Of a stretch of DNA of 38,035 bases, positions 19,371 through 26,672 are shown piece by piece. Positions within the stretch are counted from its first letter, which is position 1. Every line of letters starts with the position of its first letter. This stretch comes from Comamonadaceae bacterium (GTDB lineage Bacteria; Pseudomonadota; Gammaproteobacteria; Burkholderiales; Burkholderiaceae_C), in the NCBI GenBank assembly GCA_947449895.1, contig CANFSO010000012.1, forward strand, positions 1 through 38,035, in the 5' to 3' direction. A program made the position numbers and the translations under genes. Below the pieces are notes generated by a model that did not search any database, was not told the DNA's origin, and saw nothing but the letters and a program-made list of their open reading frames with translations.

Positions 19371-20357
19371 TTACCCTTTATGTGCGGAAAAGACAGCCAG
19401 TGGTAGTTTGCCAGACAGTGCCAGGAGTAAGTTGCTGGTCGCCATTTGCGCCATGGCGGAGCGCGTCTCATGCGTTGCTGAGCCGATGTGCGGCAAGGCG
19501 GTGACCTTGGGATGCGTGCGCAGTGCTGAGTCTTGCGGCAAGGGTTCCGTGGCAAACACATCCAGCCCTGCGGCACGCAGTGTTCCGTGATTCAGGGCGT
19601 GCAGCAGGGCTGGCTCCTGCACGATGGCGCCACGGGCACCGTTGACCAATATCGCGCCCGGCTTCATCAGTCCAAACTCGCGAGCCCCGATCAAGCCCTG
19701 CGTTTCATCCGACAAGGGCAGCACCACGGCAACGATGTCGGACCGCTGCAGCAGATCATCCAGCGCCGCAGGCGTCACCTTGCCGACCAGCTCAGGGGCG
19801 TCTTGCGCGACATTGACTTCGCGTCGGTTGTTGTACAAAACAGGCATGCCAAAACCCAAGGCAGCACGGCGTGCAACAGCTTGACCGATACGGCCAAAAC
19901 CTATTACTCCCAACGTTTTTCCGTGGACGTCCCACCCGAAAAGATCGGTATCGATATTGCGCGTCCAGCGGCCCTCGCGCACATGGTTGGAAAGTTCCAC
20001 CAGACGCCTGCTAGACGCCATGATGAGTAAGAAAATAGTGTCGGCGGTGGTCTCCGTCAGCACACCGGGCGTGTGGCACAGCATGATGCCGCGCTCGGCC
20101 AGTGCTTGCAGCGCGTAGTTGTCGACGCCAACCGACACGCTGGAGATCACTTGCAGATGCGGCGCGGTGGCCAACACAGCGGCATCGACTTTGAAGCTTG
20201 AACCGATCATGCCTTCTGTCGTGGCCAGAGCTGCATGGAAAGCCGCTACTTGCGCAGGAATACGTGGGTTGGCCACGGTCACGTCGTGCTCCGCTTGCAG
20301 CCGGGCCAGTTGGTCGGGCGGCAACTCTCTAAAAACAAGGACTTTTTGACGCGTCAT
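19371..20357 (-). CDS. kguD: D-2-hydroxyacid dehydrogenase, 2-ketogluconate / 2-keto-6-phosphogluconate reductase-like (KguD/TkrA type)
   Basis: SSVSVGVDNYALQALAERGIMLCHTPGVLTETTADTIFLLIMASSRR, HGKTLGVIGFGRIGQAVARRAALGFGMPVLYNNR, LPHIGSATHETRSAMAQMA. The specific role is inferred from resemblance and the adjacent kinase. Confidence 0.75.
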   Translation of the reverse strand: MTRQKVLVFRELPPDQLARLQAEHDVTVANPRIPAQVAAFHAALATTEGMIGSSFKVDAAVLATAPHLQVISSVSVGVDNYALQALAERGIMLCHTPGVLTETTADTIFLLIMASSRRLVELSNHVREGRWTRNIDTDLFGWDVHGKTLGVIGFGRIGQAVARRAALGFGMPVLYNNRREVNVAQDAPELVGKVTPAALDDLLQRSDIVAVVLPLSDETQGLIGAREFGLMKPGAILVNGARGAIVQEPALLHALNHGTLRAAGLDVFATEPLPQDSALRTHPKVTALPHIGSATHETRSAMAQMATSNLLLALSGKLPLAVFSAHKG

Positions 20358-20392: not shown

Positions 20393-21364
20393 TCAAAGTT
20401 TTGCTTGAAGCAATTCGGCACGGGTCGGCAAACCTTCGCTGTCGCCCAACACCTGCACCGCGCGGGCACCGATCCATGCCCCTCGCTTGACTGCCTCGGG
20501 CACACTCAGTCCGTCCAGCAAAGCGCTGATCACGCCCACCGCGAAACCGTCGCCGGCACCCACTGTGTCCACCACCGTGTTCACGGGGAAACCAGCGATG
20601 TAACCGCAGCCGGCATCGGCATCGTAATAAGCACCTTCACTGCCCAGCTTGACAACCACCAGTTGCGCACCACGTTGCCGGTAAAAGCCGGCAATGCTTT
20701 CGGGCGAATGTTCACCCGTGAGAAAGCGCCCTTCCTCGATACCGGGCAGCACCCAGTTGGCGAGAGAAGCGAGCTCATTGATCGCGTCGCGCATGGTCTC
20801 GGGTGTGGCCCAAAGCGTGGGACGAAGATTCGGATCAAAGGACACGCTGCGGCCAGCGGCACGCATCAAGTCCATGGTTTTTCGGGCCGCAGGCAAGGTT
20901 GTGGACGAGACAGCGGCAAACACACCGGTGGCATGCAGATGCCGCGCACTGAGCAACCAATCGACATCGATGTCCGCCACCCCCATGTAGCTGGCTGCGG
21001 AGCCGGCGCGGTGGTATTCAACCGGTGGGTCGCTGCCATCGCTGACTTGACCTTTGAACTGGAAACCGGTTTTTTGAGTCGGGACGCAGACCACGTGCGA
21101 GCAGTCGACGCCTTCGCCAGCCAAGGCTGCGAGCAAATAACGACCCATCGAGTCAGTCCCCAGACGACTGGCCCAGCCCACTTTCAAACTCAGCCGTGCG
21201 AGTCCAATAGCGACATTGGTTTCGGCTCCGGCGGTTCGTTTGTGAAAGCCCTGCACCGATTCCAGCGGGCCGGGCTGGTCGGCGACCAGCAGCAGCATGG
21301 CTTCGCCAAAAGTAACAACGTCTAACGCGTGCGCTACGGCGCTGCCCGCGTTGTCAGTGCGCAT
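20393..21364 (-). CDS. kguK: PfkB-family sugar-acid kinase, 2-dehydrogluconokinase (KguK)-like
   Basis: [14 protein letters not shown]...[83 protein letters not shown]. Confidence 0.75.
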
Positions 21365-22142
21365 GTTGCGAATTCAGAATTTGCCCTAGGAAATTTCGGG
21401 TTGTTTCGTGTTGTGGATGGCTGAAGAATTGCTGCGGCGGCGCCTCTTCAATGATCTTGCCTTCTGCCATGAAGATCACGCGGTCGGCCACGCTGCGTGC
21501 AAAGCCCATTTCGTGGGTGACGCAGAGCATGGTCATGCCCTCTTCTGCCAAGCTCACCATGGTGTCCAGCACTTCCTTGACCATCTCCGGGTCAAGTGCC
21601 GACGTGGGTTCGTCAAACAGCATGATCTTCGGCGTCATGCACAAGGCACGCGCAATCGCCACACGCTGCTGTTGACCGCCTGAAAGCTGGCTCGGGTATT
21701 TGTGCGCCTGCTCTGGAATGCGCACGCGGTGCAGGTACTTCATGGCGATGGTCTCGGCCGCCTCCCGGCTCAAGCCGCGCGAGCGCATCGGCGCCAGCAT
21801 GCAGTTTTGCAACACGGTGAGGTGCGGAAACAAGTTGAACTGCTGGAACACCATGCCGACTTCTTGTCGCACCGAATCCACGTTTTTACCGCCGACCGTC
21901 AAGTCGATACCGTTCACCACAATACGGCCGCTTTGCACTGTCTCCAGCCGGTTGATGCAGCGGATCAGGGTCGACTTGCCCGAGCCCGACGGCCCGCAAA
22001 CCACAATGCGCTCTCCCGCACGCACGTTCAAGTTGATACCCGTCAGCACCTGAAACTTGCCGAACCATTTGTCCACGGCTTCCATGCGGATGATGGGTGT
22101 GGCGTCTTGGGTACTGGAGGGGGACTGCATTGTGTCTGTCAT
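21354..22142 (-). CDS. ABC transporter ATP-binding protein, polar amino acid uptake (PAAT/GlnQ) type
   Basis: Walker [29 protein letters not shown], signature [15 protein letters not shown], Walker [25 protein letters not shown]. Confidence 0.95.
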
Positions 22143-22154
22143 GAAAGCACCCGT

Positions 22155-22961
22155 TTATTGCATTTTTGGCAGGTCGGTTTCCAGCCATTTACGGTAAAGC
22201 TTGTTGAGCTCACCATTGGCCGTATTGCGGGCCACGAAGTCATCCACGGTTTTCAGGAGCTCGGCTTGGCCGGGGCGCATGGCCACAGCCATGACTTGCT
22301 GGCGCAACAAGAACTTGTTTTCATAGGTGTTGGCGGGTGCGCGTTTGTCGATTTGCGCGGCCACGGTGGTTGAGCAACCAATGGCATCGACCTGACCCGA
22401 CATCAAGGCTTGCATGGCCGACGCATCGTCGTCAAAGCGGCGGATCTCGGTGCCTTCTGGGGCGACAGCTGTCAGGGCGACGTCTTGCGTACTGGCGCGG
22501 GCAACCCCCACGCGCTTGCCTTTGAGGTCAGCGGCCGCTTTGATGCTCGCTTTTTTGTCGCCGTACAGAACGATGCTGGCTGCTGCATACGGCTTGGAGA
22601 ACTGCACCTGCTTGGCGCGCTCCGGCGTGACCGCCAGCGAGGCGACCAGCAAGTCAACCTTGTTGGTCAACAAGAAGGGAATGCGATTGGGGCCGGTCAC
22701 GGGGACCAGATTGACCTTGACGCCGAGGTCTTTGGCCATCAGGCGAGCCACGTCAGCGTCATAGCCGTCAGGCTGGTTGCTGCTGTTCATGGTGCCATAT
22801 GGGGGAAAGTCCACCAGCATGCCAATCGTCAGTTCGCCTTTTTTCTTGATGTCAGCGACAGTCTGCGCGCTGGCCGTCGTGACCCATGCAGAAAGGGTAG
22901 CGCTGAGGCCCAGCGCCAAGGCTGTACCCGTGAAAAGGCGGCGTTGCATAGGCTTGATCAT
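22155..22961 (-). CDS. ABC transporter substrate-binding protein, PAAT (SBP family 3) type
   Basis: Start MIKPMQRRLFTGTALALGLSATLSAWVTTASAQT at 22961; KKGELTIGMLVDFPPYGTMNSSNQPDGYDADVARLMAKDLGVKV; VASLAVTPERAKQVQFSKPY. Confidence 0.92.
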   Translation of the reverse strand: MIKPMQRRLFTGTALALGLSATLSAWVTTASAQTVADIKKKGELTIGMLVDFPPYGTMNSSNQPDGYDADVARLMAKDLGVKVNLVPVTGPNRIPFLLTNKVDLLVASLAVTPERAKQVQFSKPYAAASIVLYGDKKASIKAAADLKGKRVGVARASTQDVALTAVAPEGTEIRRFDDDASAMQALMSGQVDAIGCSTTVAAQIDKRAPANTYENKFLLRQQVMAVAMRPGQAELLKTVDDFVARNTANGELNKLYRKWLETDLPKMQ

Positions 22962-23014: not shown

Positions 23015-23668
23015 TCAACGAGAAAGCGCCGCCGCTTGACGGCGTTCTATGCGCGCGGCCAGCAAAGACAAAGGCCAACACAACACAAAATAGATGGCAG
23101 CCACCACACTGAACACGATCAGCGGCTGAAAGGTGGCGTTGTTGATGATCTGCCCGGCGCGGGTGATTTCCACAAAACCAATGATCGCAGCCAACGACGT
23201 GCCCTTGATGATTTGCACCATGTAGCCGACCGTCGGCGCCAGTGCAATCTTGAAGGCTTGCGGCAAGACTACATCACGCATCCGCGACAGGTACGGCAAG
23301 CTGAGTGCATGCGCAGCCTCCCATTGCCCGCTAGGAATCGCCTGAATGCAGCCACGCCAGATCTCGCCCAAGAAAGCACTGCTGTTAAGGATCAGCGCCG
23401 CACCCGCCGCCACCCAAAGGTTGATTTCAATCCCCAATATCGGCGCGCCAAAGAACACCAAAAAGAGCTGCAACAGCAAAGGGGTGCCCTGAAACACCTG
23501 AATGAAGGCACCCGACAACAGGCGCGCAAAACCATTGTGTGAAGTACGGCTGAGCGCAATGATCAAGCCACCGATAGCGCCACCGATGAAGGCCATCATC
23601 GACAGTGCCACCGTCCACTTGGCCGCCTCCAGAATGAACAGAAATTCGGAAAATCCAAACGTACGCAT
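23015..23668 (-). CDS. ABC transporter permease, polar amino acid type
   Basis: LLSGAFIQVFQGTPLLLQLFLVFFG, LGEIWRGCIQAIPSGQWEAAHALSLPYLSRMRDVVLPQAFKIALAPTVGYMVQIIKGTSLAAIIG. Confidence 0.93.
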   Translation of the reverse strand: MRTFGFSEFLFILEAAKWTVALSMMAFIGGAIGGLIIALSRTSHNGFARLLSGAFIQVFQGTPLLLQLFLVFFGAPILGIEINLWVAAGAALILNSSAFLGEIWRGCIQAIPSGQWEAAHALSLPYLSRMRDVVLPQAFKIALAPTVGYMVQIIKGTSLAAIIGFVEITRAGQIINNATFQPLIVFSVVAAIYFVLCWPLSLLAARIERRQAAALSR

Positions 23669-24351
23669 CAGCGACCTGCCGGGTAGTTGAGGGCCAGCCG
23701 GTAAATCACCCGGAACAATGCAGAAAACGACAACGCCAGCAGCAGGTAGATCCCGGCCACAACGATGTAAATCTCGAAACTGCGAAAGGTCTGCGACTGC
23801 AAATTGGCCGCGACGGAGGTCAGGTCATTGGCAGAGATAGCCGACACCACGGCAGAGCTCAGCATCAGCAAAATGAACTGACTGGTCAGTGCCGGATAAA
23901 CCGTGCGCAGCGCCGGTTTCAAAATCACAAATCGAAAAATCTCGTGGCGCTTCAGGTTGAGCGCCAAGCCGGCTTCGATCTGTCCCTTCGGAATGGACTC
24001 AATCCCGGCACGGATGATTTCGGTCGCATAAGCCCCCAAGTTCACCACCATGGCGACCAATGCTGCGGTGTAAGCCGACCAGCGCAGGCCCAAGGCCGGG
24101 AGTGCAAAAAAGAAGAAGAACAGTTGCACCAAAAACGGCGTGTTGCGAATCAGCTCAATGTAAGCGTTGATGACGCAGCGCACGGGGCGCGCCCCGGCGG
24201 TCTTGCCCCAGGCGCAGACGATCGCCACCACCAACCCCAACACCATCGACAGCAAGGACAACTCAATGGTGTTGAGCGTGCCTTTGACGAGTTCCGGCCA
24301 AGCGGCAAAGACGGCATCAAATTGAAATGAATAGTTCATGAACAGGCGCAT
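23668..24351 (-). CDS. ABC transporter permease, polar amino acid type
   Basis: NAYIELIRNTPFLVQLFFFFFALPALG, YATEIIRAGIESIPKGQIEAGLALNLKRHEIFRFVILKPALRTVYPALTSQFILLMLSS. Alternative start 24339 (MNYSFQ). Confidence 0.93.
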   Translation of the reverse strand: MRLFMNYSFQFDAVFAAWPELVKGTLNTIELSLLSMVLGLVVAIVCAWGKTAGARPVRCVINAYIELIRNTPFLVQLFFFFFALPALGLRWSAYTAALVAMVVNLGAYATEIIRAGIESIPKGQIEAGLALNLKRHEIFRFVILKPALRTVYPALTSQFILLMLSSAVVSAISANDLTSVAANLQSQTFRSFEIYIVVAGIYLLLALSFSALFRVIYRLALNYPAGR

Positions 24352-24387: not shown

Positions 24388-24405
24388 ACTGAAACCGATT
24401 TCAGT
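24388..24405. promoter_or_regulatory. LacI/PtxS-like operator palindrome ACTGAAACCGATTTCAGT in the ABC-kguKD operon promoter
   Basis: Perfect 7-bp arms with CCGA centre; on the minus strand a TATAAT hexamer (24413-24408) lies 2 bp upstream of it. Confidence 0.7.
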
Positions 24406-24437: not shown

Positions 24438-25532
24438 TTATGGAAAACCCTGTACCGACTTGGTCACGCCGTGCAGAGACGACCCGCGCGCCACCAAGCG
24501 TCCTGACAACAATATCTGACGCGGTGGAAGTGCCGCACCCTTGAGCCGTTCAATCAGGCACCCCGCCGCAATCCGGCCCAATTCATCGGTCGGCTGCACG
24601 ATGGTGCTCAGACCCGGTCCGATGTAAGGCGACCACTCGGTGTCATCAAAACCTACAAAACCAAGATCGACACCGAACTGCCAACCAAGGCGCGCCATGG
24701 CAGCCACTACGCGCAAGGTCACCACCGCGTTGCTGGAGACCACAGCCGCCAAGCGCTGGCCGGCACGCTGACGCAGCTCGCGCAAGGCATTGTCTAGGGC
24801 TTTCGTGTCGTCGACGGTATTTTCATAAGTGTGACCTTGCAAGCCTGCCACACCTGGCGCCGAATCAGTGATGAAGCTGCGAAAAGCCGATTCGCGCTCT
24901 TCACGGGAGCTGACGCTTTTGATCGGCTCTGAGATAAAGAGCAACTCACGGTAGCCGCGCTCCACCAAGTGACTGGCAGCCAAGCGCACAGCGCCAGCAT
25001 TGTCCAATGACACGAAATCCGCCTGCATGCCTTGGTGACGACGATCCACCAGCACGACCGGCTTGCCTTGAAGCGCCGCTTGGGCAGCGGCTTTGGTATC
25101 ACGTCCTAATGTATTCAAAATGAAACCGTCCACCTGGTAGGCAGAGAGGGCCGCAATGGCATCGCTTTCACGTCGGCTGTCATTGCCCAGATTGAACAGC
25201 ATCAGCAGATAGCCAGACTCTTGACAGGCTTTTTCGGCGCCTCGCAGCACCGCCACCGAAAAGGGGTTGGTCACGTCCGCCACAACCAAACCGATCAGCC
25301 GTGAACGTCCACGCTTCAAGGCCTGCGCCATTGGACTTGGGCTGTAGGACAGAGCGGCAATAGCAAGCTCCACCCGTATCGCAATGTCTTTGGTAAGCAG
25401 TGTTTCCCGGTGATTTAAAAACCTAGAAACGGTCGCCTTAGAAACCCCCGCCTCACGCGCTACATCAGCGATAGTTGCGCGTGCGGTGGTAAGAGGGAGG
25501 GTGTTGAGGGGTGAAGGTGTTTGACTGGTCAT
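24438..25532 (-). CDS. LacI-family transcriptional regulator (PtxS-like)
   Basis: ARATIADVAREAGVSKATVSRFLNHRETLLTKDIAIRVELAIAALSYSPSPMAQALKRGRSRLIGLVVADVTNPFSVAVLRG; start taken as MTSQTPSP at 25532 because the longer ORF reads through the palindrome. Confidence 0.92.
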   Translation of the reverse strand: MTSQTPSPLNTLPLTTARATIADVAREAGVSKATVSRFLNHRETLLTKDIAIRVELAIAALSYSPSPMAQALKRGRSRLIGLVVADVTNPFSVAVLRGAEKACQESGYLLMLFNLGNDSRRESDAIAALSAYQVDGFILNTLGRDTKAAAQAALQGKPVVLVDRRHQGMQADFVSLDNAGAVRLAASHLVERGYRELLFISEPIKSVSSREERESAFRSFITDSAPGVAGLQGHTYENTVDDTKALDNALRELRQRAGQRLAAVVSSNAVVTLRVVAAMARLGWQFGVDLGFVGFDDTEWSPYIGPGLSTIVQPTDELGRIAAGCLIERLKGAALPPRQILLSGRLVARGSSLHGVTKSVQGFP

Positions 25533-25555
25533 CGGCAAATAGGCACGCTCTTTAT

Positions 25556-25581
25556 ATTCTCTGAAACCAATTTCAGAGAAT
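25556..25581. promoter_or_regulatory. 26-bp perfect palindrome ATTCTCTGAAA-CCAA-TTTCAGAGAAT upstream of the lacI-type gene, candidate autoregulatory operator
   Basis: 11-bp perfect arms; core CTGAAACC(A)ATTTCAG matches the 24388 palindrome. Confidence 0.7.
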
Positions 25582-25646
25582 GGTAGCACTGCCTAGCATC
25601 GACACCGGCTCAGTGACCTTATCTGCGCTCATTAAGCCTAAAACGA

Positions 25647-26672
25647 CTAGCTTGCATCGACCGATATTTTTCTATCTTTGACAACTTTTGTCCATCGCGT
25701 GATGTCTTCTCTGATGTAAGAGGTGAACTGCAGTGAAGTCATAGGCATCACCGCCAGCGCTTCGGCTTCAAATTTTGCAATCACCTCAGGCTCCAGTAAG
25801 ACGCGGTTGAGTTGAGCATTCAGCAGTTTGGTGATGTCCTCAGGTAATCGCGCTGGTCCGGACAATCCGTACCACTGCAAACTGGAAAATTCTTTAAGCC
25901 CTATTTCCGCAAAAGTAGGTACGTTCGGCAACAAGGGATGACGCGATGCGGAGGTCACCGCCAAGGCTTTGAGCTTGGGTGACTTGAGGTGCTGCAACAC
26001 CGCTGTTAACCCAGGGAACAGCACGTCGGTACGGCCCGCCATGAAGTCAACCAATGCGGGGCCAATACCGCGATAAGGCACATGGGTGAGCTCAATGCCG
26101 GTGACAAGTTTGAACTGCTCCATCACCAAGTGAGAAGACGTGCCCGGACCGGCGGAGCCATAAGCTGCATCACCGGCTTTTTTCTTCAGACTGCTGATCA
26201 AGTCATCCACAGTGTTGACATGAGCCAGACCGGGCCCAGCGACAAGCACATTCGGTGAGCCACCGACCATACCGATATGGGTAAAGTCTTTCAACGGTTC
26301 GTAGGGAAGTTTTCGAACAGCCGGGTTCGTGCCGTGGGTGCTGATGTTCACGATCATGAACGTTTGCCCATCCGCGGGTGCGCGGGCCGTGGTGATGCAA
26401 GCAATGGTGCCGCCACCACCGCCGATGTTTTCAACCACCCATGGCGTGCCCATTGCACGCGATAGACGATCGGCTGTGGTCCGAGCCACCAGATCCAGGC
26501 CACCGCCAGGTTGCGCAGGAACAATCAGCTTGATGGGTTTGGTACTGGGCCAAGTAGCAGCGGCATTGACGCCTTCCGGCAAAAGCCAAACGCCAACTCC
26601 TCCGACAAGAAGCTGCCAAGCCCTTGACAGACATTTGCGTCGGGACGCATCAAGCATCGTGCAGGTGGGCAT
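25647..26672 (-). CDS. Bug/TctC-family substrate-binding protein
   Basis: STKPIKLIVPAQPGGGLDLVARTTADRL, VVENIGGGGGTIACITTARAPADGQTFMIVN, LTHVPYRGIGPALVDFMAG. Confidence 0.92.
   Translation of the reverse strand: MPTCTMLDASRRKCLSRAWQLLVGGVGVWLLPEGVNAAATWPSTKPIKLIVPAQPGGGLDLVARTTADRLSRAMGTPWVVENIGGGGGTIACITTARAPADGQTFMIVNISTHGTNPAVRKLPYEPLKDFTHIGMVGGSPNVLVAGPGLAHVNTVDDLISSLKKKAGDAAYGSAGPGTSSHLVMEQFKLVTGIELTHVPYRGIGPALVDFMAGRTDVLFPGLTAVLQHLKSPKLKALAVTSASRHPLLPNVPTFAEIGLKEFSSLQWYGLSGPARLPEDITKLLNAQLNRVLLEPEVIAKFEAEALAVMPMTSLQFTSYIREDITRWTKVVKDRKISVDAS

Follow-up and report, generated by a model that had tools for sequence, protein, structure and literature searches.

The window analyzed here, a 38,035-nucleotide stretch from a Comamonadaceae bacterium, contains an operon on the minus strand with the gene order lacI, permease, permease, substrate-binding protein (SBP), ATPase, PfkB kinase, and 2-hydroxyacid dehydrogenase. 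The SBP gene (22155..22961) encodes a periplasmic protein of 268 aa that matches the whole SBP_bac_3 domain (Pfam PF00497) with 125.6 bits (E 1.4e-36; curated cut-off 26.4). Its residues 1 to about 32 are signal-peptide-like, and in the AF2 model, which has a mean pLDDT of 84.7, residues 1-29 score below 50. The closest solved folds are those of amino-acid SBPs, among them T. maritima ArgBP, AncCDT-1, and TTC0807. Both permeases, encoded at 23668..24351 (permease 1, the first gene of the putative transcript) and 23015..23668 (permease 2), are of the HEQRo_perm_3TM type with TIGR01726 scores above the cut-off, and the ATPase (21354..22142) is of the polar-amino-acid type (GlnQ/HisP-like), with GlnQ as the nearest model. 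Judged by its domain and by the linked permeases and ATPase, the SBP is of the SBP_bac_3 / polar amino acid ABC importer type.

The transporter genes are followed on the same strand by two enzyme genes. The PfkB sugar kinase (20393..21364), a probable 2-ketogluconate kinase, is KguK-like, with 54% identity to Klebsiella aerogenes KguK, and matched PDB entry 4du5 with an E value of 1.5e-175. The 2-hydroxyacid dehydrogenase (19371..20357) is KguD-like, with 52% identity to Klebsiella KguD, and its best PDB match was 9m0t, 'Probable 2-ketogluconate reductase'. The kgu operon of K. aerogenes encodes PtxS, KguE, KguK, an MFS carrier, and KguD. Like the kgu operons of Pseudomonas and Klebsiella (ptxS-kguE-kguK-kguT-kguD), the window operon has a homologous kinase, reductase, and LacI regulator; unlike them, it has a four-gene ABC importer in the place of the MFS carrier KguT, which was not found in the operon, and no kguE was found between lacI and the reductase gene. 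A search for the kinase in 369 genomes of the class gave, apart from the window, a single distant match.

The LacI-family regulator (24438..25589, minus strand) is PtxS-like, with 36% identity to Klebsiella PtxS over 258 aa, and its real start is probably the ATG at 25530-25532. In Pseudomonas, PtxS recognizes the operator TGAAACCGGTTTCA with 2-ketogluconate as the effector (PMC5902321, PMC11678583); this palindrome was chosen for the scan before it was checked in the same two papers. Scanning the window for it at ≤3 mismatches gave 6 matches, compared to 1.65 expected. The PtxS-type palindrome TGAAACCGATTTCA (24390..24403; 1 mismatch) lies between lacI and permease 1, and a weaker operator-like palindrome, TGAAACCAATTTCA (25562..25575; 2 mismatches), precedes the likely lacI start by about 30 bp. 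The window operon and the Pseudomonas kgu system thus share an operator palindrome, and the Klebsiella kgu locus gave no match to it. When ≤1 mismatch was allowed, 64 of 76 orthologous loci had the operator no more than 260 bp upstream of permease 1; another 33 sites lay near the lacI start, and in the 1.09 Mb scanned there were only 3 sites at other positions. As far as can be judged from the sequence, the operon appears to carry both the PtxS-type regulator and the operator of a kgu operon. Because palindromes are often shared among LacI regulators, the effector cannot be read from the operator alone. A TctC-type tripartite transporter receptor gene (25647-26672) directly precedes lacI on the minus strand, and no membrane component adjoins it among the genes examined.

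A MAFFT alignment was built from the SBP and seven binding proteins of E. coli K-12 (GlnH, HisJ, ArgT, GltI, ArtI, ArtJ, and TcyJ). Ser197 (codon TCA, 22371..22373, minus strand) was placed opposite the amine-contacting Asp157 of GlnH and Asp161 of HisJ, and Arg115 in the TPERAK motif (22617..22619, minus strand) opposite the carboxylate-binding Arg75 of GlnH and Arg77 of HisJ, confirming both the Ser codon that the initial annotation had assigned to the Asp position and the carboxylate-binding Arg region that it had described as retained. Misalignment of Ser197 was ruled out, since the segment SGQVDAIGCSTTVAAQ, found in the SBP translation, aligns without gaps to the reference SBPs, and in the AF2 model Ser197 ends a strand with a helix starting at 198. 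Arg115 was invariant in a wider SBP alignment and in a set of 59 sequences.

We then took the ligand contacts of LAO from the table in PMC5740067 and mapped all of them, except Phe191, onto the SBP. Arg77, Thr121, and Gln122 were kept, and Asp11, Ser72, and Asp161 were replaced by Leu49, Ala110 (22632..22634, minus strand, counted from the start codon at 22961), and Ser197, respectively. Both contacts of the ligand amine, the Asp at GlnH 157 / HisJ 161 and the Ser72/Thr70 residue, are therefore absent; the loss of Ser72, which the initial annotation overlooked, is as telling as that of the Asp. A nearby acidic residue as a substitute was rejected on the basis of the alignment, with no acidic residue at any mapped LAO contact position (Phe191 being the one unmapped). 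Asp51, another candidate, is conserved but in the alignment lies opposite the non-acidic Ala12 of GlnH and Thr13 of HisJ. The SBP thus shares the fold, the Pfam family, and Arg75/77 with GlnH, HisJ, and LAO and differs from them in lacking Asp157/161, Asp10/11, and Thr70/Ser72. GltI resembles it in an NRIP motif with Arg at position 93 but has the amine Asp.

The ortholog set comprised 80 named loci from one-genome-per-species data, with 74-98% identity to the SBP. Position 197 was Ser in all 80, with the segment pattern D[AV][IL]GCS[TV][TA], ruling out a sequencing accident as its source. Across 301 genomes of the family, there was a clear gap between the orthologs (≥71% identity) and the next relatives (≤49%). 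The operon was conserved as well: where at least 3.5 kb of downstream sequence was available, the kinase was found in 67, the dehydrogenase in 65, and both in 65 of 69 orthologous loci, and lacI was found in 54 of the 63 loci with room upstream.

In a tree of 59 SBPs, the protein fell inside a clade of 46 sequences (support 99/96). The Asp was absent from all 46 members, which have Ser, Asn, Gly, Ala, Pro, or Val instead, and present in all 13 sequences outside, among them a Pantoea protein adjoining an alanine racemase and three paralogs from the genome to which the window belongs; these frequencies are not a census, because similarity to the query governed the choice of sequences, and some of the branches are long. 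GltI also lies outside this clade. By parsimony, the loss of the Asp was probably ancestral to the clade. A loss unique to this protein was excluded, with Ser fixed in the orthologs and the Asp missing clade-wide. The Asp loss described in the initial annotation is thus real in that the residue is absent here, but it did not arise in this protein and is common to the clade.

The gene contexts of the clade members were diverse. In alphaproteobacterial relatives with 52-64% identity (Azospirillum, Sinorhizobium, Neorhizobium, Rhizobium, and Paracoccus), a 2-hydroxyacid dehydrogenase or another oxidoreductase adjoins the ABC genes, with or without a kinase. Quinate-type clusters, whose SBPs have Asn, contain a type II dehydroquinase (L145:3775-11714 and L144:4551-7986), accompanied in L145 (Rhizobium johnstonii) by a QuiC-like dehydratase and shikimate dehydrogenase and alone in L144 (Roseomonas). 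Hexuronate-type operons with a polar-amino-acid-type ABC importer (L160:411-6011 and L159:575-5918) encode an altronate/galactarate dehydratase and a sugar kinase; in L160 (Diaphorobacter) a tagaturonate-reductase-like enzyme is also present, and L159 (Cupriavidus) has the dehydratase and kinase. The context is rpiB-ribokinase in Ancylobacter and a tagatose-bisphosphate aldolase in Devosia. Three SBPs could be exceptions that are perhaps amino-acid-related. Those of Agrobacterium fabrum and Chelatococcus (Asn; L147:2563-8946 and L164:2551-9327) have as neighbors an aspartoacylase-family gene together with a gene for an amino acid deaminase or alanine racemase, and that of Agrobacterium tumefaciens Sut002 (Gly; L167) has an ornithine cyclodeaminase nearby. 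We tentatively propose, at somewhat less than even odds, that the alpha-amine Asp was lost a single time, at the base of the whole SBP_bac_3 clade, whose members then became importers of various amine-free hydroxy and sugar acids (2-ketogluconate, hexuronates, and quinate/shikimate). Asp-less clade members occur in many soil- and plant-associated Proteobacteria, and if the proposal is true, many 'amino-acid transporter' annotations are wrong.

For the window operon, we propose, with a probability of about 0.72, that a polar-amino-acid-type ABC importer was recruited for 2-keto-D-gluconate, or for a 2-keto sugar acid closely resembling it, and that the SBP is its binding component. From the observed residue states, conservation, operon content, and operator, we infer the ligand, its contacts, the reaction order, and the regulation as follows. 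Arg115 would hold the ligand carboxylate, like Arg77 of LAO/HisJ, and replacement of the alpha-ammonium clamp (Asp161 and Ser72 of LAO/HisJ) by Ser197 and Ala110 would accommodate a keto or hydroxyl group by offering it space and a neutral polar group. After import, the KguK-like kinase would phosphorylate 2-ketogluconate, and the KguD-like dehydrogenase would then reduce the product to 6-phosphogluconate, which may enter the Entner-Doudoroff pathway; phosphorylation and reduction of 2-ketogluconate to 6-phosphogluconate are known from Pseudomonas (PMC11678583). This phosphorylate-then-reduce order is not universal, since some alphaproteobacterial relatives lack the kinase; in these, reduction to gluconate may come first. 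The PtxS-like repressor on the TGAAACCGGTTTCA palindromes would free the operon when 2-ketogluconate is present. In Pseudomonas and Klebsiella, uptake is the task of the MFS carrier KguT, for which the ABC importer would stand in here.

The initial annotation had read the Asp loss as pointing to a carboxylate ligand that has no alpha-amine, for example a 2-keto sugar acid. This direction fits the KguK/KguD-like neighbors, the PtxS-type operator, and the conservation of this combination across Burkholderiales, but the Asp loss is insufficient as evidence. The interpretation is supported in part; on the ligand class it was largely right, on better grounds than the residue alone. Two Agrobacterium SBPs of cluster F, NocT and OccJ, depict what the residue can say. 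Like the SBP, both keep the carboxylate Arg and have the amine Asp replaced (Ser207 and Asn202, respectively), a likeness in residue states. NocT, with Gly97 at the Ser72 position and Ser207, is changed at both positions, as is the SBP, and does not bind arginine (PMC4192606). OccJ has Asn202 at the Asp site and nevertheless binds arginine with micromolar affinity; reverting this residue to Asp (N202D) had no effect (PMC5740067). The ligands of NocT and OccJ are substituted amino acids, whereas that proposed for the SBP is a sugar acid, and the LAO Asp11 position is Glu in both but Leu49 in the SBP. Because OccJ with Asn still binds arginine, the Asp loss alone is weak evidence; it is consistent with an amine-free ligand and not proof of one. 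Likewise, an S-to-D reversion of the SBP may be uninformative or misleading, because N202D was silent in OccJ.

The OccJ results also speak for a reading in which the protein is still an importer of an amino acid or amino-acid derivative, with the amine handled by other residues, as do the deaminase, racemase, and ornithine cyclodeaminase genes beside the three exceptional SBPs. We regard this as highly improbable: the neighbors in the window and in the orthologous loci are sugar-acid enzymes rather than amino-acid enzymes, both amine ligands are gone with no acidic residue at the mapped contact positions, and the aspartoacylase-family genes of L147 and L164 mean that the ligand there could be an N-acylated amino acid. 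A further reading takes Ser197 to be no ligand-specific adaptation at all, the Asp having been lost long ago in the clade ancestor and the ligand being recognized mainly by other residues. The presence of six different residues at this position in a 46-member clade entirely without the Asp speaks for it. However, there was no drift in the ketogluconate-like group, with Ser in 80 of 80 orthologs and 6 of 7 distant relatives, and the hexuronate (Ser) and quinate (Asn) subgroups are each uniform, with few sequences sampled. This reading, which is compatible with 2-ketogluconate as the ligand, therefore seems to us rather unlikely.

The importer might instead carry another sugar acid (gluconate, 5-ketogluconate, 2-keto-3-deoxygluconate, or a hexuronate), with a KDG-type kinase and a reductase acting on a different 2-keto acid. 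The kinase is also 54% identical to that of the Diaphorobacter altronate dehydratase/tagaturonate reductase operon, its nearest NCBIfam model is KDG kinase (with a score below the cut-off), and the SBPs of the hexuronate operons L159 and L160 likewise have Ser at the 197 position. The kinase was rejected as proof of KguK, given the equal similarity of the hexuronate-operon kinase and the low resolution of the kinase tree. Against another sugar acid, no dehydratase, aldolase, or uronate isomerase was found in the window operon, the hexuronate-operon kinases form a separate pair (support 100/99) in an otherwise poorly resolved tree, and the known effector of the PtxS-type operator is 2-ketogluconate, which together leave this alternative improbable, and 2-ketogluconate remains our preferred ligand.

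Known uptake of 2-ketogluconate is by the MFS carrier KguT. No earlier description of an ABC importer for this compound was found in the open-access literature searched. What would be new is the substitution of an ABC importer for KguT, along with the Asp-less pattern across the clade. If the assignment is true, a binding-protein-dependent ABC route would serve Comamonadaceae and their relatives as a scavenging system for a product of glucose oxidation, and the presence or absence of Asp at the GlnH 157 position could serve, together with gene context, as a one-residue flag for correcting 'amino acid ABC transporter' annotations.

The named carriers of the orthologous group belong to Comamonadaceae, Oxalobacteraceae, and Alcaligenaceae. 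Among the ortholog loci, the operon is common in the genus Variovorax, several described species of which use 2-ketogluconate (PMC12396923). In Variovorax sp. J22G73, one orthologous SBP (L093:8001-8807; 77% identity) is an orphan, as neither the permeases and ATPase nor the kinase and reductase had a match within 8 kb of it, and a second locus (L113) has the full operon.
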